Shown here one piece after another: positions 19,405 through 35,130 of a stretch of 64,000 bases of DNA. This DNA is from Niallia circulans (GTDB lineage: Bacteria; Bacillota; Bacilli; Bacillales; Cytobacillaceae), in the NCBI RefSeq assembly GCF_003726095.1, contig NZ_CP026031.1, positions 2,542,001-2,606,000 of the forward strand, in the 5' to 3' direction. The notes beneath the pieces are model-generated. The model made no database searches. It had not been told where the DNA came from and worked only from the letters and a program-made list of their open reading frames with translations. The translations under genes were made by a program, and so were the position numbers. How positions within the stretch are numbered: the first letter of the stretch is position 1; each line of letters starts with the position of its first letter.

Positions 19405-19528
19405 TTGTTCTTAACACTCCTCAGGTGTTCCAGCCACTTTTGCTGTACGGAAAGAAGACCCGCAGCCACATGAAGCAATCGCATTAGGATTGTCGATGGT
19501 GAATCCTCCGCCCATTAGGGATTGCTTG
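19405..19528 (-). repeat. Left attachment repeat (hesB 3' fragment)
   Basis: Identical over 124 bp to 35007-35130. It encodes codons 84-121 of the HesB-like protein on the minus strand, including the stop at 19411-19413, but lacks the rest of the gene. This is the original chromosomal 3' end displaced by integration. Confidence 0.95.
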
Positions 19529-19729
19529 AGAATGTTGTTATATCAATGTTTGTAGTTGTTTTTAGGGATTATGAATTGCAATCATGATTGTTGATTGCAA
19601 TCCTATATGATTGTTAATGTCGATAACTGGATTATAACCAAAGTTTTACTTTTAAACAAGAAATACCATCTTGCCATTTTCATACTGATTATCAAATTAC
19701 CTTTTTGACAAAAAAACAATTATTTACTA
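19529..19729. promoter_or_regulatory. Left-end region with possible recombinase arm sites
   Basis: The segment contains a GATTGCAATC palindrome (19593-19602), a second ATTGCAATC (19575-19583) and GATTGTTAAT (19609-19618). The last also occurs near the right end (34924-34933). Such repeats are typical of integrase or excisionase binding sites; no binding is shown. Confidence 0.4.
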
Positions 19730-21163
19730 TTACAACTTTGAGATATCAATAAAAGGGGTACTTAATCTCTTCTTAACTTCTGAAATCAAATCGTCGACTT
19801 CTTCTTTTGTCTCAAAGCGTCGATACTCAAATGCATAATCAAATTTCGTAGGATTGCTTTTATAAGGATTGATTCTCCAATTAATGTCATTTAGTAAATT
19901 ACTGATTACTTTTGGATTAAGTGAAATTAGTTCTTCAAATAAAGAATCATATTCACTAAGCACATAACTAATAATGTCTATCTGTTTTGAATACTTATTT
20001 GAGTAGAAATCCTCAACAGAGTGCTGCTCTTCAAGAAAAGTAATCTTTAGTATTTCTTTTTTTTCATACAATTCTAGTATAATATTATGATTGGTCGTCT
20101 TTCTTTCTTCCATCTTTAGTATTTCTTCTCCGAAATTCTGAAGTTTTACTGCATATTTTTCATATTTGGTAACAAACTCCTCTTCTGATAGCTCGTAAAC
20201 ATCATACTTGATATCTTCTCTATTTGCCTTCATAAAGGACCACATATAACTTGAAAAATTCTCCCCATACTTTTTTTCAAGAAATTCTTTTTTACTTCTC
20301 GCTCTAACTTGAAGCTCATCCTCCCATTTTTGTTGTTTTTTCTTCTCAAATTTTCTAATCATAGTATCAAACCTAATATTACTTCCATTAATGATTTCTG
20401 TATAGGTCATTGAGCTATACTTAAACTCTTCGTTGTATAAGAACTTTATATCAGTTAATTTACAAGAATGCTCTAATGGGGAATGAAATTTATACTCTTG
20501 TGGAGGAAATTTTCGACCATACCTATCTTCACCCCTAATATCTTCATACCGAAATGAAAAATCAATAGTAACTTCAAGATTATCTAATTTTAAGTAATAG
20601 CAAAAACCTGTTGTATTAAAAATTGTTTCTACAGGGTCTTTACGACGTCGAGCTTTTTGGATATATAAGTCTTTTGAATTAGAATACAATAGAAATACAT
20701 CTGCATCAAGAATCCAAAAATCTTGTATATTTGCTGCTCTATATAGATTGTGCCTATCTAACCAATCTTTTGAGGATAGTGAGCTATGTTGAAATTCAAA
20801 AGCCCATACTGACCCTTTTAGTTTTCCAGAGGTGTGAGTTACTAATATATCAGCAATTTGATGGGTTTCTGGAATATATACTTCCAAATCTACTTTGGCA
20901 TTCGGAAATCGACTTATCAGCCATTTGTATAAAATGTCTTTACCTTGCAAATGCTGTTTCGTCTCCTTTTCATAATTTGTAACAACACATTCAGCTTTAG
21001 GAAGATGAGAAAAATATGCACCTTTTATTGGTCCATTATTATATCTTACCTTTTTAAGACAGTTTGGACACAATAACTCACCATTCCTTGATAATACTCT
21101 AGTTGCTTCATCCTCGCATTCTGACGCAAATATGCTCTTCCCCTCAGTCACACATCTTATCAT
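19730..21163 (-). CDS. CoiA-like competence-family nuclease homologue
   Basis: A 477-residue protein. The N-terminus has CPNCLKKVRYNNGPIKGAYF SHLP-type zinc and His features (LLCPNCLKK, FSHLP) as in CoiA. It is followed by a PD-(D/E)XK-like core: VDLEVYIPETHQIADILV (Asp) and WAFEFQHSSLS (Glu, Gln). The C-terminal half is charged and helical with no recognised domain. CoiA acts in DNA processing during transformation; here the gene lies in a mobile island, so a DNA-targeting or defence role is equally possible. The ATG at 21163 has GGAG 10 nt upstream. It is the leftmost island gene. Confidence 0.7.
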   Translation of the reverse strand: MIRCVTEGKSIFASECEDEATRVLSRNGELLCPNCLKKVRYNNGPIKGAYFSHLPKAECVVTNYEKETKQHLQGKDILYKWLISRFPNAKVDLEVYIPETHQIADILVTHTSGKLKGSVWAFEFQHSSLSSKDWLDRHNLYRAANIQDFWILDADVFLLYSNSKDLYIQKARRRKDPVETIFNTTGFCYYLKLDNLEVTIDFSFRYEDIRGEDRYGRKFPPQEYKFHSPLEHSCKLTDIKFLYNEEFKYSSMTYTEIINGSNIRFDTMIRKFEKKKQQKWEDELQVRARSKKEFLEKKYGENFSSYMWSFMKANREDIKYDVYELSEEEFVTKYEKYAVKLQNFGEEILKMEERKTTNHNIILELYEKKEILKITFLEEQHSVEDFYSNKYSKQIDIISYVLSEYDSLFEELISLNPKVISNLLNDINWRINPYKSNPTKFDYAFEYRRFETKEEVDDLISEVKKRLSTPFIDISKL

Positions 21164-21336
21164 ATAAAATTCACTCCACACTTTTATTTTTGAGCATAAT
21201 TCACCTATAATCTCCTAATATAAATAAGGATGCCTAGATTTCGTTATGAATGAGTCCTTTGTTGCTTTTAGTAATTATTTCGTTATATCCTCTTGTTTTA
21301 ATTAGTCTCCATGTGTTAACCGATTGAATTTTAGCT

Positions 21337-22431
21337 TTAATTATTTAGACGTTGTTTTAACCATCTATATATATTGGCAATATTAACCTCAAACCCTTTG
21401 CCCTCTAACTTTGTTAATGACATAGCTCCTCCAAATATTTCTTCTTTATCCTCTTCTTCTTGTGAAATTGATTCAGCGATAAGAGACGTTTGAAGAATTG
21501 AAGCATCCAATAACCTTTTTTGTTGGTCTATCATGATTTGTTGTTGTCCAATAGTTTGAGACTGCAGTTGTATAGTAGCATTTAGAAGCATTATTTGACT
21601 TTTAAAGTGCTGGACATTAGCCATTAACTGTTGATTTTGGGGTTCGCTAGGATAGTTCATATATGCCATATCATTTAATATTGAGGGCAACTGCAAATAT
21701 AATTCTAATGCTTCTTGAATACTCGATAATGCTATTTCCCTTGAGTCAGGCACTACTGTAAAAAGTACGCTACCAGCTTCATGGGTTATTTCTGTAGTAG
21801 CTTTAACACCTATATCTTTCAAGAATTCTGCAAAATAAATAAGATATTGTTCACAGGGAACACGAACATGTTTTGGGAAATCAAAGATAGTGGTTAGCAT
21901 ACCTTCTTTATTATCATTTAAGAGCTGAACTATCGCATTTTCCATCATTCTATTTACTAAAGTTAAGTAGTTATCTATATTATCTTGATTGGCATCAGCT
22001 GCACATATAAAATCTACTTGAAATCCATCTATATCAGCAATCCAACTACTTCCACTACTACCAAGTGCCCATTTTCTCAACTTACTTAGTAACTCTTCTG
22101 CACTAAAAATATTCTTCCATTTCTCTATATCCCATGAAAAATCAATAGAAAGTATAAATTCTTCTTCTATCTTTTCCTTATGTAAGTAGATATTTTGTTT
22201 AAACCCCAACTTCCAAGGAGATGAAATCTTAATTGATACCATATCTTCTTCTTCAAGTTCAAGCCTAATATCTCTAAATGGAGTTCTTGTTATTACTGCT
22301 GCTACTTGGTTCGAAAGTACATTAAAAGTAAACTCGTTCGGATAGTTAAGAATCTTCACTTTATCCCTATCAATAGCTTCTTCATCAACTACTAAATAAG
22401 GTTCATTTTGATGAAATATTGTTTTTATCAT
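21337..22431 (-). CDS. Unknown 364-residue protein with a coiled-coil C-terminus
   Basis: I do not recognise this family. Residues 1-100 look beta-rich (LELEEEDMVSIKISSPWKLG). Residues 100-250 are mixed, with GSSGSSWIADIDGFQVDFIC. Residues ~270-320 form a Gln-rich helix likely to be a coiled coil (QLQSQTIGQQQIMIDQQKRL). The tail is helical, ending IYRWLKQRLNN. No membrane segment or catalytic motif is evident. AAGGAG precedes the ATG. It starts 9 nt after the serine recombinase gene, so the two are almost surely co-transcribed. Confidence 0.75.
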   Translation of the reverse strand: MIKTIFHQNEPYLVVDEEAIDRDKVKILNYPNEFTFNVLSNQVAAVITRTPFRDIRLELEEEDMVSIKISSPWKLGFKQNIYLHKEKIEEEFILSIDFSWDIEKWKNIFSAEELLSKLRKWALGSSGSSWIADIDGFQVDFICAADANQDNIDNYLTLVNRMMENAIVQLLNDNKEGMLTTIFDFPKHVRVPCEQYLIYFAEFLKDIGVKATTEITHEAGSVLFTVVPDSREIALSSIQEALELYLQLPSILNDMAYMNYPSEPQNQQLMANVQHFKSQIMLLNATIQLQSQTIGQQQIMIDQQKRLLDASILQTSLIAESISQEEEDKEEIFGGAMSLTKLEGKGFEVNIANIYRWLKQRLNN

Positions 22432-22440
22432 ATTTGCTCC

Positions 22441-23031
22441 TTATAATTGTTCTTTTATAGCCCTATATATTGTCGCTCTACTAATACCAGTTATTGCTTC
22501 AATGTCTTTTACTGTCTTTATTTTTGCTCCTTCATTGTTTCTGCTATTAAATAACTCTAAAGCATGCTTTAATTTAGCGTTTTTCTCTGTATATTTCTTT
22601 GGTCGTCCTTTGTATACTCCTCTCTTCTTAGCTTCTTCAATCCCCTCGATTTGTCTTTCTCTAATCAAATCTGCTTCGAATTCAGCTATGCCAGATAAAA
22701 CAGTAACCATCAGCTTTCCAATTGCTGTTCCTGTATCTAACTTATCTCCCCCCATATTCAATACTATAAGCGAGACACCTTTACTTTTTATGTAGTCAAT
22801 AGTATCCAAAGCATCCTTAGTACTCCTCGCAAATCGGTCTAACTTGGTTACAACAATTGTGTCTCCATCCTTTACTGTCTCTAAGAGTAGTTTAAACTGC
22901 TCTCTATTTTCTGTCTTTCTTCCACTAACCTTTTCTTTAAAAATAGACTCACATTCAGCTTCTTGCAGTTGCTTAATTTGTGCTGTTAAATGTTGACCTG
23001 AAGATGACACACGTGCATAGCCATATTTCAT
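22441..23031 (-). CDS. Serine recombinase (resolvase/invertase family)
   Basis: A 196-residue small serine recombinase. The catalytic serine lies in YGYARVSSSGQ (about residues 3-13). The active-site Arg motif is TKLDRFARST, and GKLMVTVLSGIAEFEADLIR forms the long dimer helix E. A C-terminal helix-turn-helix ends in ITGISRATIYRAIKE. It catalyses site-specific strand exchange such as resolution or inversion. The ATG at 23031 follows GAGGTGGG by 7 nt; longer starts lack a ribosome site. Its target site may be the 300-bp gap upstream. It is distinct from the island's tyrosine integrase. Confidence 0.9.
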   Translation of the reverse strand: MKYGYARVSSSGQHLTAQIKQLQEAECESIFKEKVSGRKTENREQFKLLLETVKDGDTIVVTKLDRFARSTKDALDTIDYIKSKGVSLIVLNMGGDKLDTGTAIGKLMVTVLSGIAEFEADLIRERQIEGIEEAKKRGVYKGRPKKYTEKNAKLKHALELFNSRNNEGAKIKTVKDIEAITGISRATIYRAIKEQL

Positions 23032-23242
23032 ATTCCCACCTCTTTTTTGATACATGTATATGAGACATCGTTAGAACAATTATATCAATCTATCATTTTT
23101 GTATCAATACGGTGTAGTCAAATGATACACAACAACCTACTACAATAGTCCAATAAGAATGTCGTAATTCTAATACGAATTATATTTATTGAAAGTTCCA
23201 TTAAATATAATAAACGTTTATATCAATTGAACCCATAAAATC

Positions 23243-23277
23243 ATCAAAGAGACACCCAATAGAGGTGCCTCTTTGAT
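23243..23277. terminator. Terminator downstream of the HNH gene
   Basis: Hairpin with arms around ATCAAAGAGRCAC (23243 on, ending 23277), 12 of 13 paired, in the gap between the minus-strand HNH gene and the recombinase gene. Confidence 0.65.
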
Positions 23278-23330
23278 TTATTATCATATAACAAACAATC
23301 CGTTGTATCTTTTTTTCATTTTTTTAATTG

Positions 23331-24251
23331 TCAATTTTTAAAAATATTTTTTCTATGCCAAGTGAAATATTCCTTATTTTCAGGAAAGATAGACACCTTA
23401 GTTTCTTCAACTAATACGTAAATTTCATATTCTTCTTTACTTATTTTAGAAGAGATAAGTAAATTTCCTCTTTTATCTAGGGAGATAAGGCCTTTATCAT
23501 AAAGTGCATCATGATTACAGCAAAGTAATAACCCATTATACGGATCTAACCGTTCTTCATTTGTGCTATCTTTCCAAGGTTTTGAATGGCTTGCTCTTAA
23601 TACCTCGGGTAGTTTAATACCACATAATGCACACTGACCTTTCCATAATGGAAACATACCATTCCTAAATTTTTGCTGCCCCAATCTAATTTTTGTTTTC
23701 ATTACTGATTCTGTTTCAACTATTATTGGAATTAAGGGATTATGTTCAGTTCTTCTAACAGCATCAATCGATAATTCTAGCTGTTCCTCATTTACTTGAT
23801 AAATGTTCAATTCACTAATCATTTCAAGAAGTTTTATAGCTAGTTCTTCATTACATGGATATAAATATCCTTGATTCCCATTACCATCCTCCTGAAAAGG
23901 TGAATATTTAACTGGCAATAATGGCTTTATTTCATTAAACCTTTGACGTATATTAATCGGCTCATCTAATTGGTGATATTCTAAATTCACTAAATAACCC
24001 TCATTACTCCACTTACTCAGTCCGTTCAAACTTTGGGGTTTACTTTCTTCTTTACAGTTGTCACTCGCTATACTAATAGCAACAATGTTCCCCTTTACAT
24101 AATGAAACACTCTATCCCCTTTTTTCACTTCTTTCATACGCTTCCATGAATGCGGTACTTTCTGACCTTTATCTTTCTGTGGAGACCAAATAATTCCTAA
24201 ATCTTTTTCTTCCTGATATGTGTGTCCTTGCATAACTATAAAGTTGCTCAT
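23331..24251 (-). CDS. PUA/EVE-like plus HNH endonuclease, candidate modification-dependent restriction enzyme
   Basis: A 306-residue protein with two parts. The N-terminal ~70 residues (FIVMQGHTYQEEKDLGIIWS, WKRMKEVKKGDRVFHYVKGN) look like an EVE/PUA-type module that reads modified bases. The C-terminal HNH nuclease has CALC (207-210), His222 (ASHSKPW), Asn239 (PYNG), CCNH (244-247) and DKGLISLD. EVE-HNH fusions are known as type IV, modification-dependent endonucleases, so defence against phages with modified cytosine is the likely role. No methyltransferase gene is adjacent, which fits. The ATG at 24251 follows AGGGGG by about 8 nt. It lies downstream of the controller-like gene, behind a terminator. 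Confidence 0.75.
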   Translation of the reverse strand: MSNFIVMQGHTYQEEKDLGIIWSPQKDKGQKVPHSWKRMKEVKKGDRVFHYVKGNIVAISIASDNCKEESKPQSLNGLSKWSNEGYLVNLEYHQLDEPINIRQRFNEIKPLLPVKYSPFQEDGNGNQGYLYPCNEELAIKLLEMISELNIYQVNEEQLELSIDAVRRTEHNPLIPIIVETESVMKTKIRLGQQKFRNGMFPLWKGQCALCGIKLPEVLRASHSKPWKDSTNEERLDPYNGLLLCCNHDALYDKGLISLDKRGNLLISSKISKEEYEIYVLVEETKVSIFPENKEYFTWHRKNIFKN

Positions 24252-24411
24252 AAAACTTCCCCCTAATAAGACATTACTCTTTTCTATATACATTTCTTAA
24301 ATAATCTAATTGCCCCTTTTTTCTCCTATTAATAAATAAAAATACGATGCTACTAGGTATATTAATATTAACTTAACATATCAAAAGAACAAGGTTAAAC
24401 CATAAAATAAA

Positions 24412-24451
24412 AAGTCCCTATGCCACAGAATTAAATTGTGACTGGAGACTT
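24412..24451 (-). terminator. Terminator after the controller-like gene
   Basis: Imperfect hairpin: AAGTC and CACA on one side, TGTG and GACTT on the other. On the minus strand it is followed by TTTTTATTTT. It lies only 3 bp beyond the stop of the XRE gene and ahead of the HNH gene. Confidence 0.6.
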
Positions 24452-24453
24452 CC

Positions 24454-24711
24454 TTAATATGTATCTCTTTTTATTAAGTAATTTCTATATTCTTTTTCCA
24501 GTTCTGCTACGAACTCAGATGGCTTAATATCTAAAGCCTCAGCTAATAAAAATATGGTTGTAATAGATGGTTGCTTTATATTTCTCTCTAACATGCTTAT
24601 ATATGTTCTATCTAAACCTGTTCTACCAGCTATTTCCTCTTGCGATAAACCCCTATCTTTTCTAATTAACTTTAATACATTTCCAATCATAATTGCCTTA
24701 ATTTCCTTCAA
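24454..24711 (-). CDS. XRE-family regulator resembling restriction controller (C) proteins
   Basis: An 85-residue helix-turn-helix protein. The stretch LKLIRKDRGLSQEEIAGRTG followed by LDRTYISMLERNIKQPS and LLAEALDIKPSEF matches C-protein regulators of restriction-modification systems very closely. The start is taken as TTG 24711 because AAAAAGGAG lies 7 nt upstream; ATG 24690 is an internal alternative. The gene is divergent from a lipoprotein gene across a symmetric operator (24764-24819), which it probably binds. It precedes an HNH nuclease gene in the same direction. Confidence 0.85.
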   Translation of the reverse strand: MKEIKAIMIGNVLKLIRKDRGLSQEEIAGRTGLDRTYISMLERNIKQPSITTIFLLAEALDIKPSEFVAELEKEYRNYLIKRDTY

Positions 24712-24763
24712 GAGAAATCTCCTTTTTAGACAATTACACAATTTAAAAACCTTGCACTCCACG

Positions 24764-24819
24764 TACTATAGTCTACAAACCATTTATTATTTGTTATAAT
24801 AAAATTGTAGACTATAGTA
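24764..24819. promoter_or_regulatory. Symmetric operator with divergent overlapping promoters
   Basis: Exact 15-bp inverted arms TACTATAGTCTACAA (24764-24778) and the complement (24805-24819) sit 41 bp apart centre to centre, about four helical turns. Each arm contains the palindrome ACTATAGT, close to the C-box half-site pattern GACTnnnAGTC, and a TCTACA that can serve as a -35. Rightward, TATAAT (24795-24800) follows 17 bp after TCTACA (24772-24777). Leftward, the mirror -35 is at 24807-24812 with a weak AT-rich -10. Confidence 0.75.
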
Positions 24820-24905
24820 TTAGTTCAAAAGAAGGGAAGGTGCTGTATTAAAACTACTATCAGTATGAATACTTATAAATAAAAAATTATCTAGAGGTGC
24901 AATTA

Positions 24906-25742
24906 ATGAAAAAGCCATCATATTTTATTATCTTTCTACTCATCTTTTTACTTGCGGGATGTGGCAAAGAAGCTAAGTTTGAAAAGGCAATCGAATTTTT
25001 AAAAGAAAATAACTGGGAAGAGGCTAACGAAATCCTATCGAAACTCCCTTCTGATTATAAAGAGACATTGTTATTAAAACACTATGCTAATGGACAATTA
25101 TTTTATAGTAAATCGAAGGATAAAGAACAAAATTTTGCTAAGAATATTGACGAACTTAATATGGATTTATCAACTAATTATAATGGAGAATTCAGAGAAG
25201 ATATTAATAATTTGATAGAAGAAATGACTGAGAAACAAGAAGTTTATGACAAAAAAATATCAGAAAAGAATTTAAAAGAAGCAATTGAATTAGTACATAA
25301 AGAGGATTTTGAATCTAGTTTGGAAAAAATCAATCAACTAACTCATATTAAAAATACTTCAAGCGCAAAAAATTATATTCAAGCTAGAATAGAATTTGAT
25401 AAGGACTCTCCAGATATTAATAAATATTTATTATATTTATCAAAAATTAGTTCTAATTATGATGGAATACTAGAGAAAGAAATTCATTCATATATAGAAA
25501 ATCATACTATTGGCTGGAAAGAAATCAAGGAATACGCAGAAAATGTAAAATTTCTAGAAGAGAACATAATAGAACGTCCCTCATTACAGATGACTTCGGA
25601 TGAAGTAAGAAATTCTACATGGGGAGAACCCATGGATATTAACAAAACAACTACAAGTAGTGGTATTCATGAGCAATGGGTTTATTACGGCAATCGGTAC
25701 ATATATCTAGATAACGGTATAGTCACTGCTATACAAGAATAA
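24906..25742 (+). CDS. Lipoprotein with helical repeats and an OmlA/SmpA-like C-terminus
   Basis: A 278-residue lipoprotein. The signal peptide ends in the lipobox LLAGC, so the cysteine near residue 19 would be lipidated and the protein held on the outer face of the membrane. Residues 25-190 are helical and charged, with two similar EKAIEFLKENNWEEANEIL-type units. The last ~55 residues (MTSDEVRNSTWGEPMDINKT, EQWVYYGNRYIYLDNG) resemble OmlA/SmpA-type folds. GAGG lies 8 nt before ATG 24906. It is divergent from the controller-like gene and probably under the same operator. The following GIY-YIG gene is 22 nt away. Confidence 0.75.
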   Translation: MKKPSYFIIFLLIFLLAGCGKEAKFEKAIEFLKENNWEEANEILSKLPSDYKETLLLKHYANGQLFYSKSKDKEQNFAKNIDELNMDLSTNYNGEFREDINNLIEEMTEKQEVYDKKISEKNLKEAIELVHKEDFESSLEKINQLTHIKNTSSAKNYIQARIEFDKDSPDINKYLLYLSKISSNYDGILEKEIHSYIENHTIGWKEIKEYAENVKFLEENIIERPSLQMTSDEVRNSTWGEPMDINKTTTSSGIHEQWVYYGNRYIYLDNGIVTAIQE

Positions 25743-25764
25743 TTTACTGGAAGGAGTGTTTTTT

Positions 25765-26586
25765 TTGTTACCTAAAGAATATAGCAGAATGAATAAATAC
25801 AGATATTTTTTTAAAAAAGCTAATCCTGATTTAAAATTTTTACTATATCATAACTATTTTGACGACTTTATCAACAATGAATCTCCCATTCACACTACAA
25901 ATTTTAATGATTTAAAAATCGATATATTTAAAGGTAGTTTTTCTAATTTATACAGCATCTCATTATCGTTAAATTGCTATATAACTAGCTCATCGAAGAA
26001 ATGCAATGCATATTTCGCATCAGTCCACTTTAACTACACTGATTTTAATATTAGAGGAAAAAAAGTATTTCAATGGATTCCGCGTGTTGATTGGTTTAAG
26101 CAAGATGCGCATTTTGGTTATAGTCGGACAGAACAATATCCAATAAACAACGGTAATTTATTAGCATTAGTAGAAGAAGCATTAGAGCATAATAAGAAGA
26201 TAGATTACAGATATAAAAATTTAAATAATGAAAAATGCCAAACGATACCTGAAATGTATCCTAGCAATCCAGCCTTTATCTACCTAATCGAATGCCAAAA
26301 TAAAATAAAAATAGGTAGAAGCGTTGAACCAAATCGACGTCTTTCACAAATTGCATGTAATACACCTTCTGAAACAAAGTTAATAGCTACTATATATTGT
26401 GAATTTGCTGATATAGTAGATGAATTGCTAAAGAATCATTTTAAATATCTTAACCACAGAGGTGAGTGGTTTTCGTTAACAATGGATGATATAAAAAGAA
26501 TATTAACAAAAAACCTTCCCTATCCTATAAGTCAATTTTTAGGAGAGGTAACAATATATAATAAAATCTCCTCCCAAACAAACTAA
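25765..26586 (+). CDS. Protein with a C-terminal GIY-YIG-like nuclease domain (T5orf172/MUG113 type)
   Basis: A 273-residue protein. The N-terminal ~165 residues are not recognised. The C-terminal ~85 residues read FIYLIECQNKIKIGRSVEPN RRL, then TPSETKLIATIYC and HRGEWFSLTMDDIKRIL. The IYLI...IKIGRS...RR pattern and the late Glu in GEWF are characteristic of the T5orf172/MUG113 branch of GIY-YIG nucleases, found in phages and their parasites. The start is TTG with AAGGAG 8 nt upstream; a GTG at 25756 overlaps that site. It is co-transcribed with the lipoprotein gene. Confidence 0.75.
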   Translation: MLPKEYSRMNKYRYFFKKANPDLKFLLYHNYFDDFINNESPIHTTNFNDLKIDIFKGSFSNLYSISLSLNCYITSSSKKCNAYFASVHFNYTDFNIRGKKVFQWIPRVDWFKQDAHFGYSRTEQYPINNGNLLALVEEALEHNKKIDYRYKNLNNEKCQTIPEMYPSNPAFIYLIECQNKIKIGRSVEPNRRLSQIACNTPSETKLIATIYCEFADIVDELLKNHFKYLNHRGEWFSLTMDDIKRILTKNLPYPISQFLGEVTIYNKISSQTN

Positions 26587-26735
26587 CTTTTGAGCAAATA
26601 ATATATAGTTTTATATTAATAGGAAACTCTGTACTGTTTTTTCATCCATTTTAGCAAACTTGTTGTTTCTTCATTTTTAGAGTGTCCTTGCCATTGTGTA
26701 CTAGACACAAATATTGCTAAATAGTAAAATAATAA

Positions 26736-26767
26736 GAACACCTAGTAATGGCTGTTACTAAGTGTTC
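26736..26767. terminator. Hairpin, probable terminator
   Basis: Arms 26736-26748 and 26755-26767 pair at 12 of 13 positions. The hairpin lies downstream of the GIY-YIG gene. Confidence 0.5.
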
Positions 26768-26827
26768 TCTGCAACACATTTAGTAAGACCAATAGTGTCT
26801 ATATTCAACTGAATTAATCATCAGAAG

Positions 26828-26870
26828 AAGAAGAACCATTGTCTGTTTGTGAGTCAGAGTGGTTCTTCTT
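26828..26870. terminator. Bidirectional terminator
   Basis: Exact 11-bp arms AAGAAGAACCA (26828-26838) and complement (26860-26870), followed by a T-rich run, lie 28 bp before the end of the convergent small membrane gene. Confidence 0.7.
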
Positions 26871-27223: not shown

Positions 27224-28129
27224 TCAGTTCATTCTTACCCCATAAGCTAACAGCTTTTTTGGTAGAATATCATCAAGATTTTTTATATCTGCATCTTGTA
27301 TTTCTATCAGATTAAAACCATTTTCTTTATAGATTTCTAATTTTCGTTCTTTTCTTTGCTTGTATTTAGCATCGTTTTCTAGTCCCCAGTATTCAATATA
27401 TACTCTTCCAGATGGTAAATAAAAGTCACAATACGCCTCTTGTTCAATTGGCAACTTTCTTTCATAAGCATGAACGATTCCGTACATGTATAACCAATTG
27501 TCAATTAAAACTTCTGCTCTAGAACGTACATAATGACCATCCATTGTCCTATATGTTGCTTCAAATTTATCCCTAAATGTTATACTATGATGATTAACAT
27601 TATTAGTTTCTACCTGAGTTTCATTTTTTTTACTCTCATTCGTACCTATTGCTTCTATAGCCTCAAGAACTGCCTTGTGGGTTAATATTGATTTCTTCCA
27701 ATTGACGAAAGGAATACCAGTTCTATCATACTTTAACTGTTTACCTCCATTTTTTTCACCTAGTAAAGTAACTATCCATCCATTTCCTTCCTTCTCTATA
27801 AATCCTAGTTCTGCAAAGATAGGGTTTATTTTATTTCTGCTTATACCAAAATGAGAACTTATTGTAGTAGCATTTATATAAGTTTCATCATTGGTTGATT
27901 TAATTAATATTTCTTCTATCCTTTCGACATCCCAAGCTATGTACTCTCCCGCTTTAAAATGCTTTTTAATTATTCCACCAATACTCTCTCCTTTTTTAGT
28001 TAACATCCAATTCTCTTCCTCTTTTTCTACCAGTTCTTTTTCCAGCAATATATTAAACATTTCTTTTACTGATTTCTTATGTTTAGTTGCTAACTTCGAA
28101 GTAGATAAATATGCTACTTTAGTTTCCAA
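27224..28129 (-). CDS. Winged-helix protein with a C-terminal PD-(D/E)XK/Vsr-like nuclease domain
   Basis: A 301-residue protein. Residues 1-60 and ~70-130 look like two winged-helix-type domains (LSTSKLATKHKKSVKEMFNI, TTISSHFGISRNKINPIFAE). The C-terminal ~110 residues hold RSRAEVLIDNWLYMYG, EAYCDFYLPSGRVYIEYWG and KLEIYKENGFNLIEIQDADI. This E...D-x-x-x-x-E-x-W arrangement fits the Vsr-like/PD-(D/E)XK nuclease fold found in defence and mobile-element proteins. The start is TTG with TTGGAGG upstream. It stands alone between terminator-like regions. Target specificity is unknown. Confidence 0.65.
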   Translation of the reverse strand: METKVAYLSTSKLATKHKKSVKEMFNILLEKELVEKEEENWMLTKKGESIGGIIKKHFKAGEYIAWDVERIEEILIKSTNDETYINATTISSHFGISRNKINPIFAELGFIEKEGNGWIVTLLGEKNGGKQLKYDRTGIPFVNWKKSILTHKAVLEAIEAIGTNESKKNETQVETNNVNHHSITFRDKFEATYRTMDGHYVRSRAEVLIDNWLYMYGIVHAYERKLPIEQEAYCDFYLPSGRVYIEYWGLENDAKYKQRKERKLEIYKENGFNLIEIQDADIKNLDDILPKKLLAYGVRMN

Positions 28130-28285
28130 TGTAAAAAACCTCCAACTTGTTCTATTAGTTTAATAGTACTAGTTCGAAGGTCTTATAATCAATATAAATT
28201 TAGATTTTTTGGATAATGATATAAATAAAAATGTTCACTTTCAAAAAGTAAATTATGCATCGAATTAGCACTTTTAAAGCTTAAT

Positions 28286-29002
28286 CTATTTAATCAATAA
28301 TTGCATGACTGGAGCAAGCAATTCTTTCATACCAACACCTGTAGAAACAATGGCATTAAGCTTATCTAAAAGGGAATATGTTTTTTTCATAGGTGTCTCG
28401 TTTGCTATAGAAGAAATTTTTTCGTGGTTTATCATTAACGAACCTAAAGTTCTTTCCAATGCATCTCTTATACTTTGAATCCCACCAACTTTATAAGAAG
28501 ATAATGCTTCCCTAATTGAAGTTAAGTTTCTGAACAAGAGAGATTGGATATCTTTAGGTAAATTAGAACTAACAATACTGTCCATTAAATTATCTACTTC
28601 TATTATGAGTGATTTTACTTCTTCAAGATTAGCCTCTGGATAATTAAATCTTTCATCTTTATTCATATCTCTTGCAATATATTTTAGTACAGATACAGTC
28701 TCACTATCTATATTATTAACAAATCGTTCCATATTTCCATCAGTATCGACGTAACCCAATGCTCGTTCTATCTTTTCAATAAACTTATAGTCTTCTTCAT
28801 CATAATCATTATTTTCCATAAACACTTTAGTCTTCGCCAAATTATCTATTATTATCGATATTGAAGTTAACAAACCTATAGTATCGTCTTTGTCAATATC
28901 CAAAACGCTCCCCCAAGTATCCCTATATTTAGACTGTCTTGTAAGTGGTTGCTGATTTACTTCTTTTAGTATTTCGTATAGCATATACGCTGGACTCTTC
29001 AT
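28286..29002 (-). CDS. Unknown helical 238-residue protein
   Basis: Not recognised. It is almost entirely helical and acidic, without Cys-pairs, membrane segments or obvious catalytic motifs. Examples are DKDDTIGLLTSISIIIDNLA and IREALSSYKVGGIQSIRDAL. GGAG lies 11 nt before the ATG. The next upstream gene (29082-29342) is on the same strand, 79 nt away, so the two may form a unit. Confidence 0.65.
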   Translation of the reverse strand: MKSPAYMLYEILKEVNQQPLTRQSKYRDTWGSVLDIDKDDTIGLLTSISIIIDNLAKTKVFMENNDYDEEDYKFIEKIERALGYVDTDGNMERFVNNIDSETVSVLKYIARDMNKDERFNYPEANLEEVKSLIIEVDNLMDSIVSSNLPKDIQSLLFRNLTSIREALSSYKVGGIQSIRDALERTLGSLMINHEKISSIANETPMKKTYSLLDKLNAIVSTGVGMKELLAPVMQLLIK

Positions 29003-29081
29003 CTGGCTTTTAACTCCACCTTTCCATTTTATAGAGTTATTTTACCATATTAATACATATAATGAACAACTTACTAACTAA

Positions 29082-29342
29082 TTAAAGATTATCAACTTTC
29101 TCTTCTACCAGCTTCTCATCTTCCATTAATACAAGAACTGGCTTGTCAAATGCATAACTTAACCAACCTACTGTAGTTTCTAAATCATTATAGCTTTCCC
29201 ACTCCAGTTGTGTATGCCCACTATCAACCCATCCCATAATACTACCATCGTCCCCGTAGTGAACTACAATAATTTTATGCTTAAAAACTTCCTCTTCATC
29301 AATGATTGTTTTATATTTCATCACTCGGTAGTTCCAAATCAT
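29082..29342 (-). CDS. Unknown 86-residue acidic protein
   Basis: Not recognised. It has a beta-rich first half (WNYRVMKYKTIIDEEEVFKH, KIIVVHYGDDGSIMGW) and a helix-plus-strand second half ending in a Glu-rich tail. AAGGTG precedes the ATG by 7 nt. The small size, acidity and place ahead of the 238-residue gene would suit an inhibitor or immunity protein, but this is only inference. Confidence 0.6.
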   Translation of the reverse strand: MIWNYRVMKYKTIIDEEEVFKHKIIVVHYGDDGSIMGWVDSGHTQLEWESYNDLETTVGWLSYAFDKPVLVLMEDEKLVEEKVDNL

Positions 29343-29677
29343 AATGACACCTTCTTTTATTCTCCATATAGTTTCTTGTCAATAAACCAACTTTCGCCAG
29401 CAAATCATTGGTTAGAAACAACTTTAATCTTATGTTACTGTTCTTAACTCTTTATTTACCAGAGTTTTAATACGAATATTTATCTAGCTACTCTGAATAA
29501 AATGTATGTTTTATTTAGCTAAAAAACCATATTAAGCGTATAAATATATACAAGCCAATCTTGAAGCTCTTAACTCTAAAAATGACCTAGAAAAAACACA
29601 CTAAAAATTGTCAACTTATTGATTTTTACAAAAGTTTCTCTAACGATTCAATTAGCATTTGTTATTGATTAATAAAA
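29343..29677. other. AT-rich intergenic stretch, nothing recognised
   Basis: No gene, repeat or clear hairpin is seen in these 335 bases. The part near 29343-29400 should hold the promoter of the leftward gene. Confidence 0.4.
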
Positions 29678-29884
29678 TCATTTACCAAACCATTTTTTAA
29701 TCCATTCACGCAGCACTGGATTAAATTTAATATTTAATAACCAAGCAAGTATAAGCAACAATACATTCAAGGTTGAAGAAAAGTGCTTAATTAATACTAA
29801 ATAAGCAAGTTCCATATACGTAAATCCTACTAGGCAAGATATATTCAGAATACAGACATAATATATAAACTTTATTGGGTTCAT
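29678..29884 (-). CDS. Small membrane protein
   Basis: A 68-residue protein with two to three hydrophobic stretches (FIYYVCILNISCLVGFTYME; LVLIKHFSSTLNVLLLILAW) and a basic C-terminus (REWIKKWFGK). GGGGAG lies 5 nt before the ATG. A small, basic-tailed two-helix protein of this type could be a holin-like or toxin-like protein, but no family is recognised. Confidence 0.55.
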   Translation of the reverse strand: MNPIKFIYYVCILNISCLVGFTYMELAYLVLIKHFSSTLNVLLLILAWLLNIKFNPVLREWIKKWFGK

Positions 29885-29948
29885 TAATGCTCCCCTTCTA
29901 ACCTATCCTCTATTTTTCCTCTATACTACAGAAAAAAATTGTAAAAAA

Positions 29949-29968
29949 GTAGAGGGAATTCCCTCTAC
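29949..29968 (-). terminator. Leftward terminator, perfect 20-bp palindrome
   Basis: GTAGAGGGAATTCCCTCTAC is fully self-complementary. On the minus strand TTTTTT follows directly. It would end a leftward transcript coming from the helicase-like gene and the hairpin cluster. Confidence 0.75.
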
Positions 29969-30040
29969 CAATGTAGAATAATTATTATATCAGGAAAAAA
30001 ATAAGTGCTAGATAAAATAGTATTGTTTATTTTTTACTAT

Positions 30041-30120
30041 GTCCCTCTTCGAGGGACTTGCACTCACAAAACTGGCGTGTTGTGAGTGTCTTTTTAAAAG
30101 CTTCGCTTTTAAAAAGCAAG
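30041..30120. other. Three tandem perfect hairpins (structured RNA or origin candidate)
   Basis: In 80 bp there are three exact hairpins: 30041-30047/30051-30057 (7 bp), 30061-30069/30080-30088 (9 bp) and 30090-30101/30105-30116 (12 bp). CTTGC (30057-30061) can also pair with GCAAG (30116-30120), although that overlaps bases of neighbouring stems. The cluster lies 165 bp beyond the 3' end of the helicase-like gene and 73 bp before the leftward terminator. No known RNA family is recognised. Confidence 0.7.
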
Positions 30121-30284
30121 CCGATTCACTATAGACTTACTGATTTCTTCCAATTATATAACTAATTAATTTATTTATTTTAGTCCTATCTCTTATTCTT
30201 ACTTTTTTTCTTTAAGGAAAAATTTTTTTATATCAACTTTTTTCTATCTAAATAATTTGGGCTTAGTACGTTCTTCATCCTAAG

Positions 30285-31595
30285 TTATAAATTCCAATCA
30301 CTTGGTGATTCCGAAGAGATAACTTCTTGAGGAACTTCTTCAAAGCAATAACTATTTAAATATTGTTGAAATAATTGCCTCATACGTTTACTAGGTATAT
30401 AGATATCAATTGATTCCCCATCCCTAATAGCACTTCTCCAAATCCACTGTATCATCTCTGATAGCGCCCAAGTATCTTCATCTATGCTTATACCATATTG
30501 TTTAAAAAACATCTTCTCTACAGGATTAATATATCTGTTTACTAAGTACGCAAGTTTACGCTTATCCCTAAATTGATTTGTAGCTCTCAAAGTCATTGAG
30601 ATGAATGAACTTACATAACCATGTGGAGCAACTTTTAACATTAACTTTCCTTTTTTATTTTTTCCTTTTGCGCCTTGTATGGTAGTCCATAACACTTCAT
30701 TAGCTTTGACCCTTAAAATATTCATAAAGTAGTTTCTAGTATTATTTTTTAAAGTATTAATAGCATTTTTATATTCTCTATTCTCGAACCAGCTTTTGGA
30801 AAGACTATTTCTCCTATCTCCTACATCATTGAGTTTCCCCTCATAGATATTTATTAGGCTTCTCAGCTCCTCTTTATCTACATCAATCCTACAATCGTAA
30901 GGTACTAACTCATATCTTGCTTCTTCTTCAATAACAGACAAATACTTATATTTTATTCCATGTAAATCATAATACGATTTTTGAATTTGCCCTTTAAACA
31001 GATATGTAAGAACAAAAACATGCTGAAAATATGAAAAAATCTCGCATGGAAAATTCCATATGAGTGCTGAGTTATCACAATACATAAGATTACCCGATAA
31101 TGCCATTTGCTTTATTTTATTATACTTGGTATCAAAGTGGGATGTTTCTGGATTCCATTCAATATATTTTATCCCTCTGTCTTTCTCAACAATTTTTATA
31201 GCTCTGGCATCTTCCAATAGCTTTAAATCATCTTTTCTTAGAGGTATTTGTTCTATAACGTTTAATACCTCATCTAAAATTAATATATAACCATTTATAC
31301 GAATTAGCTCTCTAGTTTCCTCATTAGCAAGCTGAAACAGAGCATGTGTGGTACATATATCTTTTCCTTCTCCTAATAGCCTATGTAAGTCTTCTAACTT
31401 TGTTTTTTCATTTGAAGCAAATGGGTCATAAAAACTTCTATTTCTCACTGATTCCTTAATTCTTGTTACTTGTTCTAAGAAAGGTGTTACATATATAAAC
31501 TTATGTGGGAATACTGGTGCTTCATTCATATACTGTATTGCCCAAGACGATTTCCCTCTCCCACAAGGTGCATCAATAATATTTATTGTTGTCAT
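30285..31595 (-). CDS. Helicase-like P-loop ATPase, possible replication protein of the island
   Basis: A 436-residue protein. The Walker A motif APCGRGKSS lies near residues 9-17, a DEAD-type Walker B is LILDEVLNVIE, and a possible motif III-like strand is HVFVLTYLFKG. The C-terminal half has VAPHGYVSSFISMTLRATNQ and MIQWIWRSAIRDGESIDIYI PSKRMR. The final segment is reminiscent of motif VI of phage-type superfamily 2 helicases. Phage satellites and plasmids often carry such a protein for replication. ATG 31595 was chosen with AAGGAG 10 nt upstream. It lies between two structured non-coding regions. Confidence 0.65.
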   Translation of the reverse strand: MTTINIIDAPCGRGKSSWAIQYMNEAPVFPHKFIYVTPFLEQVTRIKESVRNRSFYDPFASNEKTKLEDLHRLLGEGKDICTTHALFQLANEETRELIRINGYILILDEVLNVIEQIPLRKDDLKLLEDARAIKIVEKDRGIKYIEWNPETSHFDTKYNKIKQMALSGNLMYCDNSALIWNFPCEIFSYFQHVFVLTYLFKGQIQKSYYDLHGIKYKYLSVIEEEARYELVPYDCRIDVDKEELRSLINIYEGKLNDVGDRRNSLSKSWFENREYKNAINTLKNNTRNYFMNILRVKANEVLWTTIQGAKGKNKKGKLMLKVAPHGYVSSFISMTLRATNQFRDKRKLAYLVNRYINPVEKMFFKQYGISIDEDTWALSEMIQWIWRSAIRDGESIDIYIPSKRMRQLFQQYLNSYCFEEVPQEVISSESPSDWNL

Positions 31596-31760
31596 TATTA
31601 TCATTCTCCTTATATCTCTTAATAGGACAGCTTTTAGCTAACTAATCGCTCTACTTCACTTATAAATGTGATAATAAGCAGAAAAATTATATATTTTTGT
31701 CCAATCTAATTGAGGACTTTTTAATACACATCCTAAACATCAGTAAAATCCTTCCTATTT

Positions 31761-31906
31761 TCTAAAAACCCACCTTTTATGACATACCCTTATAAATAGT
31801 ATCTTTTAACTATTAAACTCCTTACTGTTAATAGTCATAAAATTAGAGTATCATCGAATAGGAAATTCTATTTATATAGGTACGTCATAAAAGGTGGGTT
31901 TTTAGA
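31761..31906. repeat. Large cruciform-type inverted repeat
   Basis: Exact 23-bp arms (31761-31783 and 31884-31906; core AAAAACCCACCTTTTATGAC) enclose further nested complementarities: TATAAATAG with CTATTTATA, and ACTATTAA with TTAATAGT. The whole can fold into one branched structure of about 146 nt. It sits about 165 bp upstream of the helicase-like gene start. Confidence 0.8.
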
Positions 31907-31933
31907 CAAAAGAATAGTTTTTAATTAAAGAAA

Positions 31934-31955
31934 GAGCAGAGACAAGTCTCTACTC
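31934..31955 (+). terminator. Hairpin with T run
   Basis: GAGcAGAGAC and GTCTCTaCTC pair with one mismatch, followed by GATTTTT. It is directed rightward, so it could end a short transcript from the inverted-repeat region. Confidence 0.55.
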
Positions 31956-32355
31956 GATTTTTCCTAGTATTCTTAGCAGTTCATATTTGACACTATTTAA
32001 TATTTGGTTTATGTGATTTATATCTATTATTCTCCGAAGGCTTCTCTAGGGCATTTATTTGCGTTTAATCACAACATATTGTAGCACTTCACTTCCATCA
32101 GATTATCAGTAAATCTCTTCTTATGTCCTAAAACATAATAATCTTCTAACACATCCCATAAAACAGTTTATTTTGTAATTAACTTTTTTCCAATCCATTA
32201 GTAACTGTAATGATTACAAAGATTCAATTTAAATAAATGATAAAATAATGATATCTATTTAAAAGCATTCATTATTTTCAGCCAAAACTACTTAACATCT
32301 TAAGTTCCAAACACTTTATGGTTAAGGGAATTATTAAGAAGAAAGCGGTGAAGTA

Positions 32356-32571
32356 ATGTTAGATAAGTTTATTACCAGCGGTTTAAGTCTACGAAGAAAG
32401 TATAAAATAGTTAGAGAGGCTCAAAGAATTAAGCTTAAAACAATAGCAAATGAAATAAAAGTATCCGTCCCTATGTTATCAATGTACGAGAACGAATTAG
32501 TTAATTTAAGCAGAGACAAGGAATTAATGTATAGAAAAATAATAATAAACGGATCTGGTTCTCAAAAATAG
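32356..32571 (+). CDS. Small XRE-type helix-turn-helix protein
   Basis: A 71-residue protein whose stretch LKTIANEIKVSVPMLSMYEN corresponds to the recognition helices of XRE/Cro-type regulators (IA..I.VS..MLS.YE). The basic first 25 residues and lack of an effector domain suggest a simple DNA-binding switch. GGTGA lies a few bases before the ATG. It is on the opposite strand from the helicase-like gene, as expected for an element control gene. Confidence 0.65.
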   Translation: MLDKFITSGLSLRRKYKIVREAQRIKLKTIANEIKVSVPMLSMYENELVNLSRDKELMYRKIIINGSGSQK

Positions 32572-32830
32572 TTTTAACTTGAATCGTAGTTATATATATT
32601 AGGATTTTCCATCTGGATATTTTCTTATTAAATATCGTTTTTAATAAAATAGATAAAATTGTAAACTATCCCCTTATTAATTTTATATTTGGCTGTTCTC
32701 GTAAATATTGTTGCTTTTTGTTATTAGATTTTTAAAATTTAATTGAAGTTTTTAATGGAAAACTCTCCCTTTATGCACTTTAATCTGTTAATATGAGAAT
32801 GTACGTTCTTGTTAAGGGGGATAAAATAAG

Positions 32831-33400
32831 ATGTTAAAAAACGATGAAGATGTAATAAATCTAATCCAAAGCGATGAAAAAATGATGAAGATTATAAAGA
32901 TTGCAAGCACACTTAATTTGCCTGATTGGTGGATATGTGCAGGATTTGTGCGTTCAAAAATCTGGGACACATTGCACAGTTTTAACGAAAGAACAGAGAC
33001 CCCAGATGTTGATGTAATATATTTTGATGACAAAAACATCGATGAGAATTTTGAAAAGGAATTAGAGAAAAAATTGATAAAACTTATGCCTAATATACCT
33101 TGGTCTGTGAAAAATGAAGCAAGAATGCACATCATTAATAATCTTCCTTCCTATACTTCTTCTGAAGATGCTATTTCAAAGTTTCCAGAAACTGCGACAG
33201 CTTTAGGAGTAACGCTCGACAAGGAAAATAATTTAATTCTTACTGCTCCTTGGGGATTAGATGATGCTATCAATTTAGAGTTGAAACCGACCCCCTATTT
33301 TACTGAAACAAAAGAACTTGCTGTAATTTACGAGGAGCGGATTATAAAGAAGAATTGGAAGTCTATTTGGCATAAGATAAAAGTCCATCATATTAATTGA
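32831..33400 (+). CDS. Nucleotidyltransferase family protein (NTP_transf_6 / DUF925 type)
   Basis: A 189-residue protein. WWICAGFVRSKIWDTLHSF (about residues 36-54) followed by TPDVDVIYFDD gives the G-x-x-R and D-x-D pattern of this nucleotidyltransferase family. WSVKNEARMHI and PWGLDDAINLELKPTP are also characteristic. The usual length is about 190 residues, so it is complete. Substrate unknown; relatives occur widely as single genes in bacterial chromosomes. AAGGGGG lies about 10 nt before the ATG. Near-LexA-box sequence lies just upstream. Presence in an island with nucleases makes a defence or tRNA-modifying role possible. Confidence 0.8.
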   Translation: MLKNDEDVINLIQSDEKMMKIIKIASTLNLPDWWICAGFVRSKIWDTLHSFNERTETPDVDVIYFDDKNIDENFEKELEKKLIKLMPNIPWSVKNEARMHIINNLPSYTSSEDAISKFPETATALGVTLDKENNLILTAPWGLDDAINLELKPTPYFTETKELAVIYEERIIKKNWKSIWHKIKVHHIN

Positions 33401-33807
33401 TTACGAACTTGCTATACAGCGAATAATCATCATACTTTTAAACCTACTAAAAAAAAATAGTTAATATAAGAAGAATAATGACCTATGAAAAATACAATAA
33501 AGAATACGGTATTTATTTAGGACCAGAAAATATGGTAGAAAACAACTTAGAAATTGTCCTCCCCTTCTAGGAATGAAAATTTGATTCCATTCGTATCGCA
33601 AAAATAAAAAAGAAAAATTTTTCTGTCTAGAAGTATTTAGACGTTTCCAAAATAGCTCTATATTCTATTAACTGTAAAATACCCTCCCCCGATATAAACA
33701 GTAATGTTCGTACTTGGAATAGAAAGAAAAGGAAAAGAGATACAATAAACAATCTATTGCTTCACTTTTCCTTCTTAGGTATTACATTTAATGATTAAAA
33801 ATAAACT
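33401..33807. other. Gene-free stretch between nucleotidyltransferase and integrase
   Basis: Nothing convincing is seen apart from the hairpin 33729-33773. A 30-codon ATG frame near 33479 lacks a good ribosome site and was not called. Confidence 0.4.
33729..33773 (-). terminator. Probable integrase terminator
   Basis: AAGGAAAAG (33729-33737) pairs with CTTTTCCTT (33765-33773), with T-rich sequence beyond it on the minus strand, 35 bp downstream of the integrase stop. Confidence 0.5.
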
Positions 33808-34839
33808 TTATAGCTTCTTTCGAACGATATTCATCACTGGAGAGAACTCATCATGACTTTTCCTTAGGTCATCCGTATCCATCTGAATATACCTTCTCAT
33901 AGTTCGAATATCCGACCATCCACCCATTTTTTGAAGTGTAAATGCATCACAGCCATTCAGTGTCATGTTCTTGGCCCATGTATGCCTATATACGTGAGCT
34001 GTTACCTTTTTTCCCTTTATGCCAGCCTTATCAGCATAATACTTTAAACGCTTGTTAAAGTTATTCTGTCCCAACGGCTCTCCATAGGAAGAAAGAAAGA
34101 TTCTATCTGTGGTGAAGTGCTTTTTATTTTCACTAACTAATTGTATCAATAACTTTACTGTATGTGCTGAAATAGGCACAATACGAGGTTTTCTGTTCTT
34201 GTTCTTTTCACCAGCAAGTGTAATAAACCTAGTTTGAAAGTCTACATTTCCAATTCGTAAGCTTAAAAGTTCATTTGCTCTAATGCCGCTATCTAAAAGT
34301 AAAATCATAGCTACATAGTCCCTATAACCTACATAATCTCTTTGATTAGGCTGTCTAAGTACTTCTTTTACCTCTTCATCGGTAAAACAATTTGTTAGGT
34401 CTATGTCTTGTCGTAACTGTTTTACATTTGTCATAGGATTCACTTCTATTAAGTCCTCTCGCTCCAAGTAATTAAACATTGCCCTATATACCCTCAAACG
34501 AATATTAATCGTCGTATCAGACAATCCTATTCCTTGCTCACTTTTAATATATTTGTGTCCATCATACTTAGGGGCATCATGTTTCAGATAGTTAATGTAG
34601 TCTCTAAAAATTTGTGGTGATAACTCGTCTACAGATTCTATCTCGTAGTTTTTGTAAAGCCAAGTAACGAAGTAATTCCAATCTTTCTTATAATCCTTTA
34701 AGGTTCTCTGTCTTAGCCCTTCAGCACTCTTACCTGCAACAACTAGGTCTATTGCCTGCTCCATTGTTATTTTTGGGTATTCCTTTTGATTAGCCATTTT
34801 TCCTACTGGCTTCTTCCTAACTCTCTTATTTAATGACAT
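33808..34839 (-). CDS. Tyrosine recombinase (phage-type integrase) of the island
   Basis: A 343-residue integrase. The N-terminal SAM-like core-binding domain covers about residues 25-135 (LRQRTLKDYKKDWNYFVTWL). The catalytic domain has Arg187 (DSGIRANEL), a Lys in the GEKNKNRKP turn, His282-x-x-Arg285 (HVYRHTWA), Trp308 in GGWSD in place of the usual second His, and the nucleophile Tyr317 (RRYIQ). All catalytic positions are intact, so it is probably active. GAGGAGG lies 7 nt before the ATG. It is 167 bp from the right attachment repeat and is expected to recombine within the 124-bp repeat. Confidence 0.95.
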   Translation of the reverse strand: MSLNKRVRKKPVGKMANQKEYPKITMEQAIDLVVAGKSAEGLRQRTLKDYKKDWNYFVTWLYKNYEIESVDELSPQIFRDYINYLKHDAPKYDGHKYIKSEQGIGLSDTTINIRLRVYRAMFNYLEREDLIEVNPMTNVKQLRQDIDLTNCFTDEEVKEVLRQPNQRDYVGYRDYVAMILLLDSGIRANELLSLRIGNVDFQTRFITLAGEKNKNRKPRIVPISAHTVKLLIQLVSENKKHFTTDRIFLSSYGEPLGQNNFNKRLKYYADKAGIKGKKVTAHVYRHTWAKNMTLNGCDAFTLQKMGGWSDIRTMRRYIQMDTDDLRKSHDEFSPVMNIVRKKL

Positions 34840-35006
34840 AAAAAATCCTCCTCAATAGTTATGTTTTCGACATTAACTAATCGAGAAGGCTCGTAATCCA
34901 CAACCCCGATTCCGCATAATTGGGATTGTTAATACACATTTTCTAGATTGTGTACACTCAGATTTTGTGCGTAATCCACAATCCCACTACATTATTATTC
35001 AGCTCT
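34840..35006. promoter_or_regulatory. Right-end region with repeated arm-type sites
   Basis: CGTAATCCACAA occurs twice (34892-34903 and 34970-34981), and GGGATTGTTAAT (34922-34933) overlaps an inverted version and shares GATTGTTAAT with the left end. This pattern fits integrase arm-binding sites. The integrase promoter must also lie here. Confidence 0.5.
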
Positions 35007-35130
35007 TTGTTCTTAACACTCCTCAGGTGTTCCAGCCACTTTTGCTGTACGGAAAGAAGACCCGCAGCCACATGAAGCAATCGCATTAGGATTGTCGATG
35101 GTGAATCCTCCGCCCATTAGGGATTGCTTG
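35007..35130 (-). repeat. Right attachment repeat
   Basis: Exact copy of 19405-19528. It forms the last 38 codons of the intact hesB gene, so integration replaced the gene's 3' end with an identical version carried by the element. Confidence 0.95.

Follow-up and report, generated by a model that had tools for sequence, protein, structure and literature searches.

The Niallia circulans chromosome (assembly GCF_003726095.1, contig NZ_CP026031.1) poses a question within its 64,000-nucleotide stretch from position 2,542,001 to 2,606,000, hereafter the window and numbered from its first base. What has been inserted beside hesB, a gene for a HesB/IscA-type iron-sulfur (Fe-S) protein, and how would an integrase gene lying directly behind such a housekeeping gene be controlled? 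Judging from sequence comparison, the inserted DNA is almost certainly a site-specific integrative island belonging to a Bacillales clade of tyrosine integrases that is dedicated to the hesB 3' end. Its two ends probably form an RNA switch, through which the integrase gene (int) would be expressed mainly while the element is a free circle.

The island and its target gene

A search of positions 18500–36000 found a single repeat family, a 124-nt direct repeat whose copies at 19405–19528 and 35007–35130 are 100% identical and spaced by 15,602; in the 5.18-Mb genome it matches only twice. The right copy forms the 3' end of hesB (35013–35378, minus strand), an intact 121-codon, yutM-like gene recognized by TIGR00049 (1.5e-35) and Fe-S_biosyn (6.2e-19), whose product matches solved IscA/SufA chains. 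The left copy is an isolated hesB end fragment. The original prediction, made from these letters, had described an exact 124-bp repeat around 15.6 kb with an intact tyrosine recombinase just inside it, the repeat coding for the last 38 residues of the HesB/IscA protein, including its two C-terminal cluster-binding cysteines, and the gene being rebuilt on integration; all of this was borne out, the 38 codons containing CGCG and the right copy completing hesB. The recombinase gene, int (33808–34839, minus strand; Phage_integrase, 9.8e-34), runs in the hesB direction and begins 173 bp past the hesB stop. Residues R187, H282, R285, W308, and Y317 of its product are invariant in alignment A1, and we take them to be the catalytic residues.

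The state before insertion can be seen in relatives. The left host flank of the window is a reductase gene (18258–19250, plus strand; Pyr_redox_2, 7.5e-32), presumably yumC by its gene order. The genome G012 encodes an identical HesB protein and has yumC next to hesB; the two window flanks are collinear with this locus, meeting at the repeat. Among 13 genus genomes searched, 12 had a hesB match, and yumC directly adjoins hesB in seven of them, which thus show the empty site. The other five comprise the window genome and G004, which carry an element, G003, which has other genes in between, and G006 and G010, which have no yumC nearby. Since the G012 flanks are collinear at the repeat and yumC lies beside hesB in 7/12 genomes, a chance arrangement is excluded. 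The comparison with G012 also supports the expectation that the target gene is rebuilt on integration and that its 3' end serves as the attachment (att) site. The copy joined to hesB (35007–35130, minus strand) is attR in the present orientation, and its part 3' of the crossover is derived from the element; the displaced copy (19405–19528, minus strand), or attL, is the host's own hesB 3' end, G012 being collinear up to 19528. An inverted repeat at 19344–19388, also present at the empty site of G012, reads as the native hesB terminator, severed from its gene by the island; the terminator scan made no call there. Separately, a small serine recombinase lies between yumC and hesB or the displaced hesB end in G003 (L099) and N. 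nealsonii (L023), a further source of variation between the two genes; in G003, it stands beside a transporter that we presume to be SulP-like.

Had the hesB end simply been duplicated in tandem, without a mobile element, two identical copies would result, and both copies do share common differences from the G012 site. Yet empty sites exist, the same integrase occurs at hesB in many genera, and displaced hesB ends accompany it in 21/23 genomes, as described below. Contradicted by the empty sites and the relatives, this explanation was rejected, and its probability is negligible.

An integrase clade at hesB

Comparing the integrase with its nearest relatives and their att sites revealed a sharp boundary. 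In an order sample of 397 genomes, with 28 integrase matches at E ≤ 1e-70, hesB lay beside int for 15 of the 16 integrases of at least 45% identity (the other one being at a contig end), whereas this was so for 0/12 integrases of at most 43% identity. A search of 61 genomes gave four relatives with 65–93% identical integrases, all adjoining hesB, and 15 weaker integrase loci, none of them beside hesB in flanks of up to about 1.5 kb. At E ≤ 1e-100, the integrase was present in 7/193 family genomes and, among the 13 genus members, only in the window genome and G004. For 23 named loci from Niallia, Bacillus, Gracilibacillus, Viridibacillus, Ureibacillus, Priestia, Cytobacillus, Fictibacillus, Paenibacillus, and other genera, a whole hesB was found upstream of int in 20; two loci were at contig ends, and P. 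spartinae, with a broken int, was the one case with only a hesB end upstream. A second, displaced hesB end fragment was present in 21/23 of these genomes. Fragment, hesB, and int shared one contig in 16, which, together with the window, makes 17 complete elements, their two copies lying 7.8–40.6 kb apart. A viral-contig search with the integrase yielded 3 loci, and tblastn against phages and plasmids returned no record of at least 60% identity. The integrase tree, with only 4/21 branches strongly supported, was given no weight. In G561 (L119, L141), a truncated integrase lies beside hesB with a diverged hesB end about 1.4 kb off; these are the decayed remains of an element in which the int hairpin discussed below has been retained.

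Because the copies differ in several pairs, the point of exchange can be bracketed. With positions numbered from the initial base of the first Cys codon in CGCG, the copies are identical from -3 to +19 in R. arthrocnemi, -39 to +1 in U. sinduriensis, -33 to +16 in CHD6a, and -34 to +7 in S. massiliensis. The identical runs of 17 copy pairs intersect at -3 to +1, corresponding to 35071–35075 (minus strand) in the window, i.e., the Ser codon and the first two bases of the first CxC Cys codon, a position that mutation after integration could move. 3' of this point, the HesB tail encoded by the working gene is that of the element, visibly so in ISL37 and CHD6a. Comparison of the copies thus indicates that a crossover at the first CxC Cys codon swaps the host hesB 3' end for that of the element and displaces the host's own.

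A predicted hairpin before int and a proposed leader at the far end

How int would be expressed from this position was first answered by read-through from hesB, an idea favored after the terminator scan had made no call between the two genes on the strand of hesB, and abandoned once folding revealed a hairpin before int. The hairpin (34847–34889, minus strand; -20.2 kcal/mol) pairs the int ribosome site (34847–34853), with a T-rich stretch running from the hairpin to the ATG, and we propose that it acts as both lock and terminator. A long hairpin with a paired ribosome site was predicted in the 60 nt before int in 16/16 elements with a recognized start and, in an enlarged set, the ribosome site was paired in a hairpin in 27/27 elements (z scores from -4.1 to -9.9), a U run coming after the hairpin each time. 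The same stem positions hold different base pairs in different elements, according to a fold-anchored count that leans towards pairing. Rfam gave no match in the hairpin stretch and none at gathering scores in 16000–38500. A promoter rule applied between hesB and int fits 3/17 elements, the window not being among them.

At the far end, aligned elements share an outward-facing box (TTTGGGTA..AT) about 110–150 bp inside the displaced copy, followed by arm-like repeats. In the window, this promoter-like box (TTGTTT, 17 nt, TATAAT) occupies 19631–19659 (minus strand), a conserved position, and is the proposed promoter of the circle, where it would point across the rejoined site, attP, into int. 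The box pattern matches at the expected place in 15/17 elements versus 0.14 expected (17 windows of 60 bp), and in 4/5 ends outside the alignment used to draw it, the miss being the decayed P. spartinae. The repeats that follow (19529–19625, minus strand) and those between hesB and int (34890–35006, minus strand; GGRTTGTGGATTAC-type) both align across elements and are proposed to be the P and P' arms of attP, respectively.

The approximately 40 nt past the far-end -10 are complementary to the 5' arm of the int hairpin and the bases before it, the pairing beginning 1–17 nt past the -10. In the window, the proposed unlocking leader (19592–19628, minus strand) would pair with 34862–34898 (minus strand) in a duplex of -28.6 kcal/mol, and 0/200 shuffles were as good. 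This complementarity is specific to each element. In the first 16 elements, own leader-arm duplexes averaged -29.3 kcal/mol versus -16.2 kcal/mol for crossed ones, the own partner being best in 10/16; in all 27 elements, the values were -28.8 and -15.6 kcal/mol, and 0/20,000 permutations were as good. No more than 1/200 shuffles matched the true pairing in 26/27 elements, and the pairing fits also in G507, placed by eye, whose integrase is only 46% identical. A preset procedure was then tested on 12 further, held-out elements, two of them decayed (G561 and P. spartinae). It returned both ends for six, of which 5/6 were positive (z scores from -3.2 to -7.1) and G371 was missed through a wrong -10; it failed for G317 (no -10 by pattern), G507 (neither end), P. 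pinihumi and AFS073361 (no int start), G561, and P. spartinae. The last two were left out of the 27-element set.

The complementarity might instead be a feature of the DNA with no role in RNA, either inverted arm-binding sites of the integrase or a folded, single-stranded attP. Indeed, the stretches concerned form inverted repeats within attP that, in the window clade, overlap the arm-like repeats. However, these repeats are alike across the clade, whereas the complementarity distinguishes own from crossed partners by the energies just given; it also starts 1–17 nt behind a -10 box and covers the very arm that hides the ribosome site. We therefore regard the DNA explanation as unlikely, and continue with an RNA switch.

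Folding suggests when such a switch could work. In RNA truncated ahead of the 3' arm, the leader is paired to the 5' arm with a mean probability of 0.77, reaching at least 0.5 in 15/16 elements. In the full circle transcript at equilibrium, the ribosome site is free with a mean probability of 0.13 versus 0.002 in the read-through RNA. Equilibrium in the finished RNA thus mostly favors the hairpin, and the switch has to operate kinetically.

Proposed mechanism

The hairpin, the promoter-like box, and the element-specific complementarity can be read in the DNA itself; transcription, termination, unlocking, and excision are what we infer from them. In the integrated state, hesB mRNA would enter the element, where the hairpin would end the transcript and hide the int ribosome site. 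By doing both, it would keep int off while hesB retains a terminator, and the far-end promoter would fire outward. In the circle, transcription from this promoter would cross attP and enter int, and the ~40 nt at the 5' end of the RNA would capture the 5' arm of the emerging hairpin, so that the hairpin would not form and integrase would be made, allowing reinsertion.

In a variant, RNA from the far end of an integrated element would work in trans, opening the int leader of hesB read-through RNA. The box is present in integrated elements, RNA made from it would be able to pair with the hairpin 5' arm, and the integrase needed for excision would be accounted for. The hairpin, however, would have to be caught during its formation, and we consider this variant improbable, though a live rival. 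For the window, the switch acting in cis within the circle remains our preferred reading.

Related integrases at tRNA genes offer a wider view. Of 17 outgroup integrases not beside hesB, seven lacked a recognizable start and 6/10 of the rest had the hairpin. Downstream of int, a scan for partners of the arm covered five of these six, L014 being left out for its short contig; as positive controls, the true site ranked first in the window and third in ISL37. The top partner lay before the far att repeat, located independently of the scan, at 93 bp in G316 (tRNA-Val), 76 bp in G017 (tRNA-Ala), and 128 bp in G453 (tRNA-Arg). With slightly less confidence than for the window, we lean towards a split RNA switch common to a clade of Bacillales phage and island integrases, in which integrase is made only after excision rejoins the ends, at hesB or tRNA targets; we do not claim that such a switch is unpublished. 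In G031 (L142-L144), several copies of a tRNA-Sec 3' end lie downstream of the related integrase, which may reflect several islands arrayed at a single tRNA gene.

Several observations weigh against these readings. The hairpin passes a plain, bulge-free terminator rule in only 4/17 elements, and a sequence-only alignment of 27 hairpins yields only 7 consensus pairs, which is why energies and structure-anchored counts were used. The box pattern was derived from the same far-end alignment in which it scored 15/17, its -35 is weak (3–5/6 consensus matches in the 15 elements tested), and a general promoter scan of 19250–19800 called no promoter in the window. The pairing is weak in P. piscarius, where 9/200 shuffles were as good; this member of the first set, together with G317, G507, P. 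pinihumi, AFS073361, and G371, was placed by eye, and the effective number of elements is below 27 since some are close relatives. At equilibrium, the ribosome site is freed with a probability of at least 0.2 in only 5/16 elements, and with 0.04 in the window. At the tRNA targets, the lead of the top partner over the next site is only 0.3 (G316), 2.5 (G017), and 0.6 kcal/mol (G453), and the scan found no far-end partner in G031 or G551 (tRNA-Sec by eye); in G551, N runs are present and no att repeat was seen. No excisionase was recognized, and the model leaves the source of integrase for excision unexplained. Collectively, we hold a hesB-dedicated island with a circle-sensing RNA switch to be the best explanation as a whole, and a moderately probable one.

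Cargo

Between its ends, the island carries genes for a CoiA-like nuclease protein (19730–21181, minus strand; CoiA_nuc, 2.4e-19), a 364-residue protein with no Pfam, PADLOC, PHROG, or NCBIfam match (21337–22431, minus strand), a small serine recombinase (22441–23055, minus strand; Resolvase, 8.2e-43), an HNH restriction-type protein (23331–24293, minus strand; HNH_2, 2.2e-11; PADLOC HNH, 1.5e-26), and a helix-turn-helix regulator like restriction control proteins (24454–24762, minus strand; HTH_3, 6.3e-17; PADLOC Control_protein, 1.4e-12). These are followed by a MUG113/T5orf172-domain protein (25756–26586, plus strand; 1.8e-12), a candidate phage-defense protein (27224–28129, minus strand; PADLOC PDC-S69, 4.1e-98), a DEAD/DEAH-type helicase-like protein of a phage-associated family (30285–31604, minus strand; phrog_2467, 4.1e-70; homologues named DEAD/DEAH box helicase), and a nucleotidyltransferase (32831–33400, plus strand; NTP_transf_6, 6.4e-59). 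By its PDC-S69 and HNH profile matches, the cargo appears partly defense-like. Pointing away from an integrative conjugative or mobilizable element, no relaxase was among the Pfam matches of 14 scanned island proteins, small open reading frames being outside the scan, and comparison of 10 window proteins (nine cargo proteins and the integrase) with PHROGs gave one phage-associated family and no head, tail, or terminase family. A non-coding stretch (31744–31923) contains two 59-nt arms, 83% complementary, with 62 nt between them.

Other elements at this site differ in content. Prophage-type elements include ISL37 (terminase, portal, head, and tape measure) and that of U. xyleni (terminase, portal, and head). 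Among other islands of the clade, scans of selected proteins found candidate or known-type defense genes, namely PDC-S28, PDC-M36A, PDC-S73, PDC-S15, HEC-06, PbeA/mREase_IV-like, and Mrr. A 15-kb hesB-site element of U. aquaedulcis (L071) encodes a terminase, a portal, and a protease-capsid fusion, with no tail gene among the scanned proteins, and presumably resembles a capsid-forming phage satellite. Elements of 17–20 kb in F. enclensis (L073) and P. aestuarii (L087) encode tape-measure or tail proteins, with no head or terminase in the few proteins scanned.

Between the window and six near relatives, only the int end and 94–202 bp of the far end are common to all, the conserved far-end DNA corresponding to 19468–19672. 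The HNH gene is shared with CHD6a, and some of the six have weaker recombinase or helicase matches. Because near relatives share their ends and little cargo, the ends and int can be regarded as a chassis with exchangeable cargo. The original prediction had tied a defense-type cargo to an iron-sulfur locus. Such a link was rejected: the same clade brings prophages and other elements to the same site, the cargo is mostly unrelated between elements, and since prophages and defense islands of the clade have little in common apart from their ends, the cargo shows no particular connection with iron-sulfur biology. In the V. arvi element (L069), about 10.8 kb in, there is an internal second far-end remnant with box and leader, which breaks off shortly after the hesB end begins and points to accretion by tandem insertion and deletion.

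Comparison with known systems

A target other than a tRNA gene had been thought unusual, a view that did not hold, protein-coding targets being common: 43.4% of ~1.75 million islands in the TIGER/Islander resource lie in protein-coding sequence (PMC12424338). Like the window island, those in protein-coding genes have the integrase beside one att copy, a duplicated target end, and a rebuilt gene (PMC12424338). The literature searched, with partial coverage, did not mention hesB/yutM as an attachment site, and the portion of the Integrase-On-Demand main text consulted has no hesB, IscA, or Fe-S term (PMC12884075). The closest likeness to the proposed circle promoter is found in ICEclc of Pseudomonas, where, in the part of the account consulted, an outward promoter at the other end comes to sit before intB13 upon excision, and no RNA lock or unlocking leader is mentioned there (PMC2704930). 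A further difference, according to the consulted part of another account, is that the ICEclc int also has its own promoter, Pint, while integrated (PMC4063739).

In Bacillales, hesB is thus a site common to prophages and defense islands. If the switch operates as proposed, these elements would read their own integration state by RNA, a short leader reporting the rebuilt attP and releasing integrase. This compact module for circle-only expression would explain a silent int directly behind a housekeeping gene and a host gene that keeps a terminator. The int hairpin and its matching far-end leader would also form a signature that helps to locate island far ends when no reference genome is available.

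Islands at dusA, trmE, and yicC are reportedly genomic islands or prophages in protein-coding genes; the window island differs from them in its target, hesB, in the swap of the 3' end at a cluster-binding Cys codon, and in the proposed split RNA switch. In phage lambda, retroregulation by sib ties int expression to the integration state through an RNA hairpin near attP. The sib element is located downstream of int and works through mRNA stability, whereas the window hairpin lies before int and would be opposed by a leader from the other end. In transcription attenuators and antiterminators, two partners compete for one arm of a hairpin that is followed by a U run. The window resembles these, by sequence and energy only, in having a terminator-like hairpin and a strand that would compete for its arm; it differs in having no Rfam match and in that DNA recombination alone brings the competing strand into cis.

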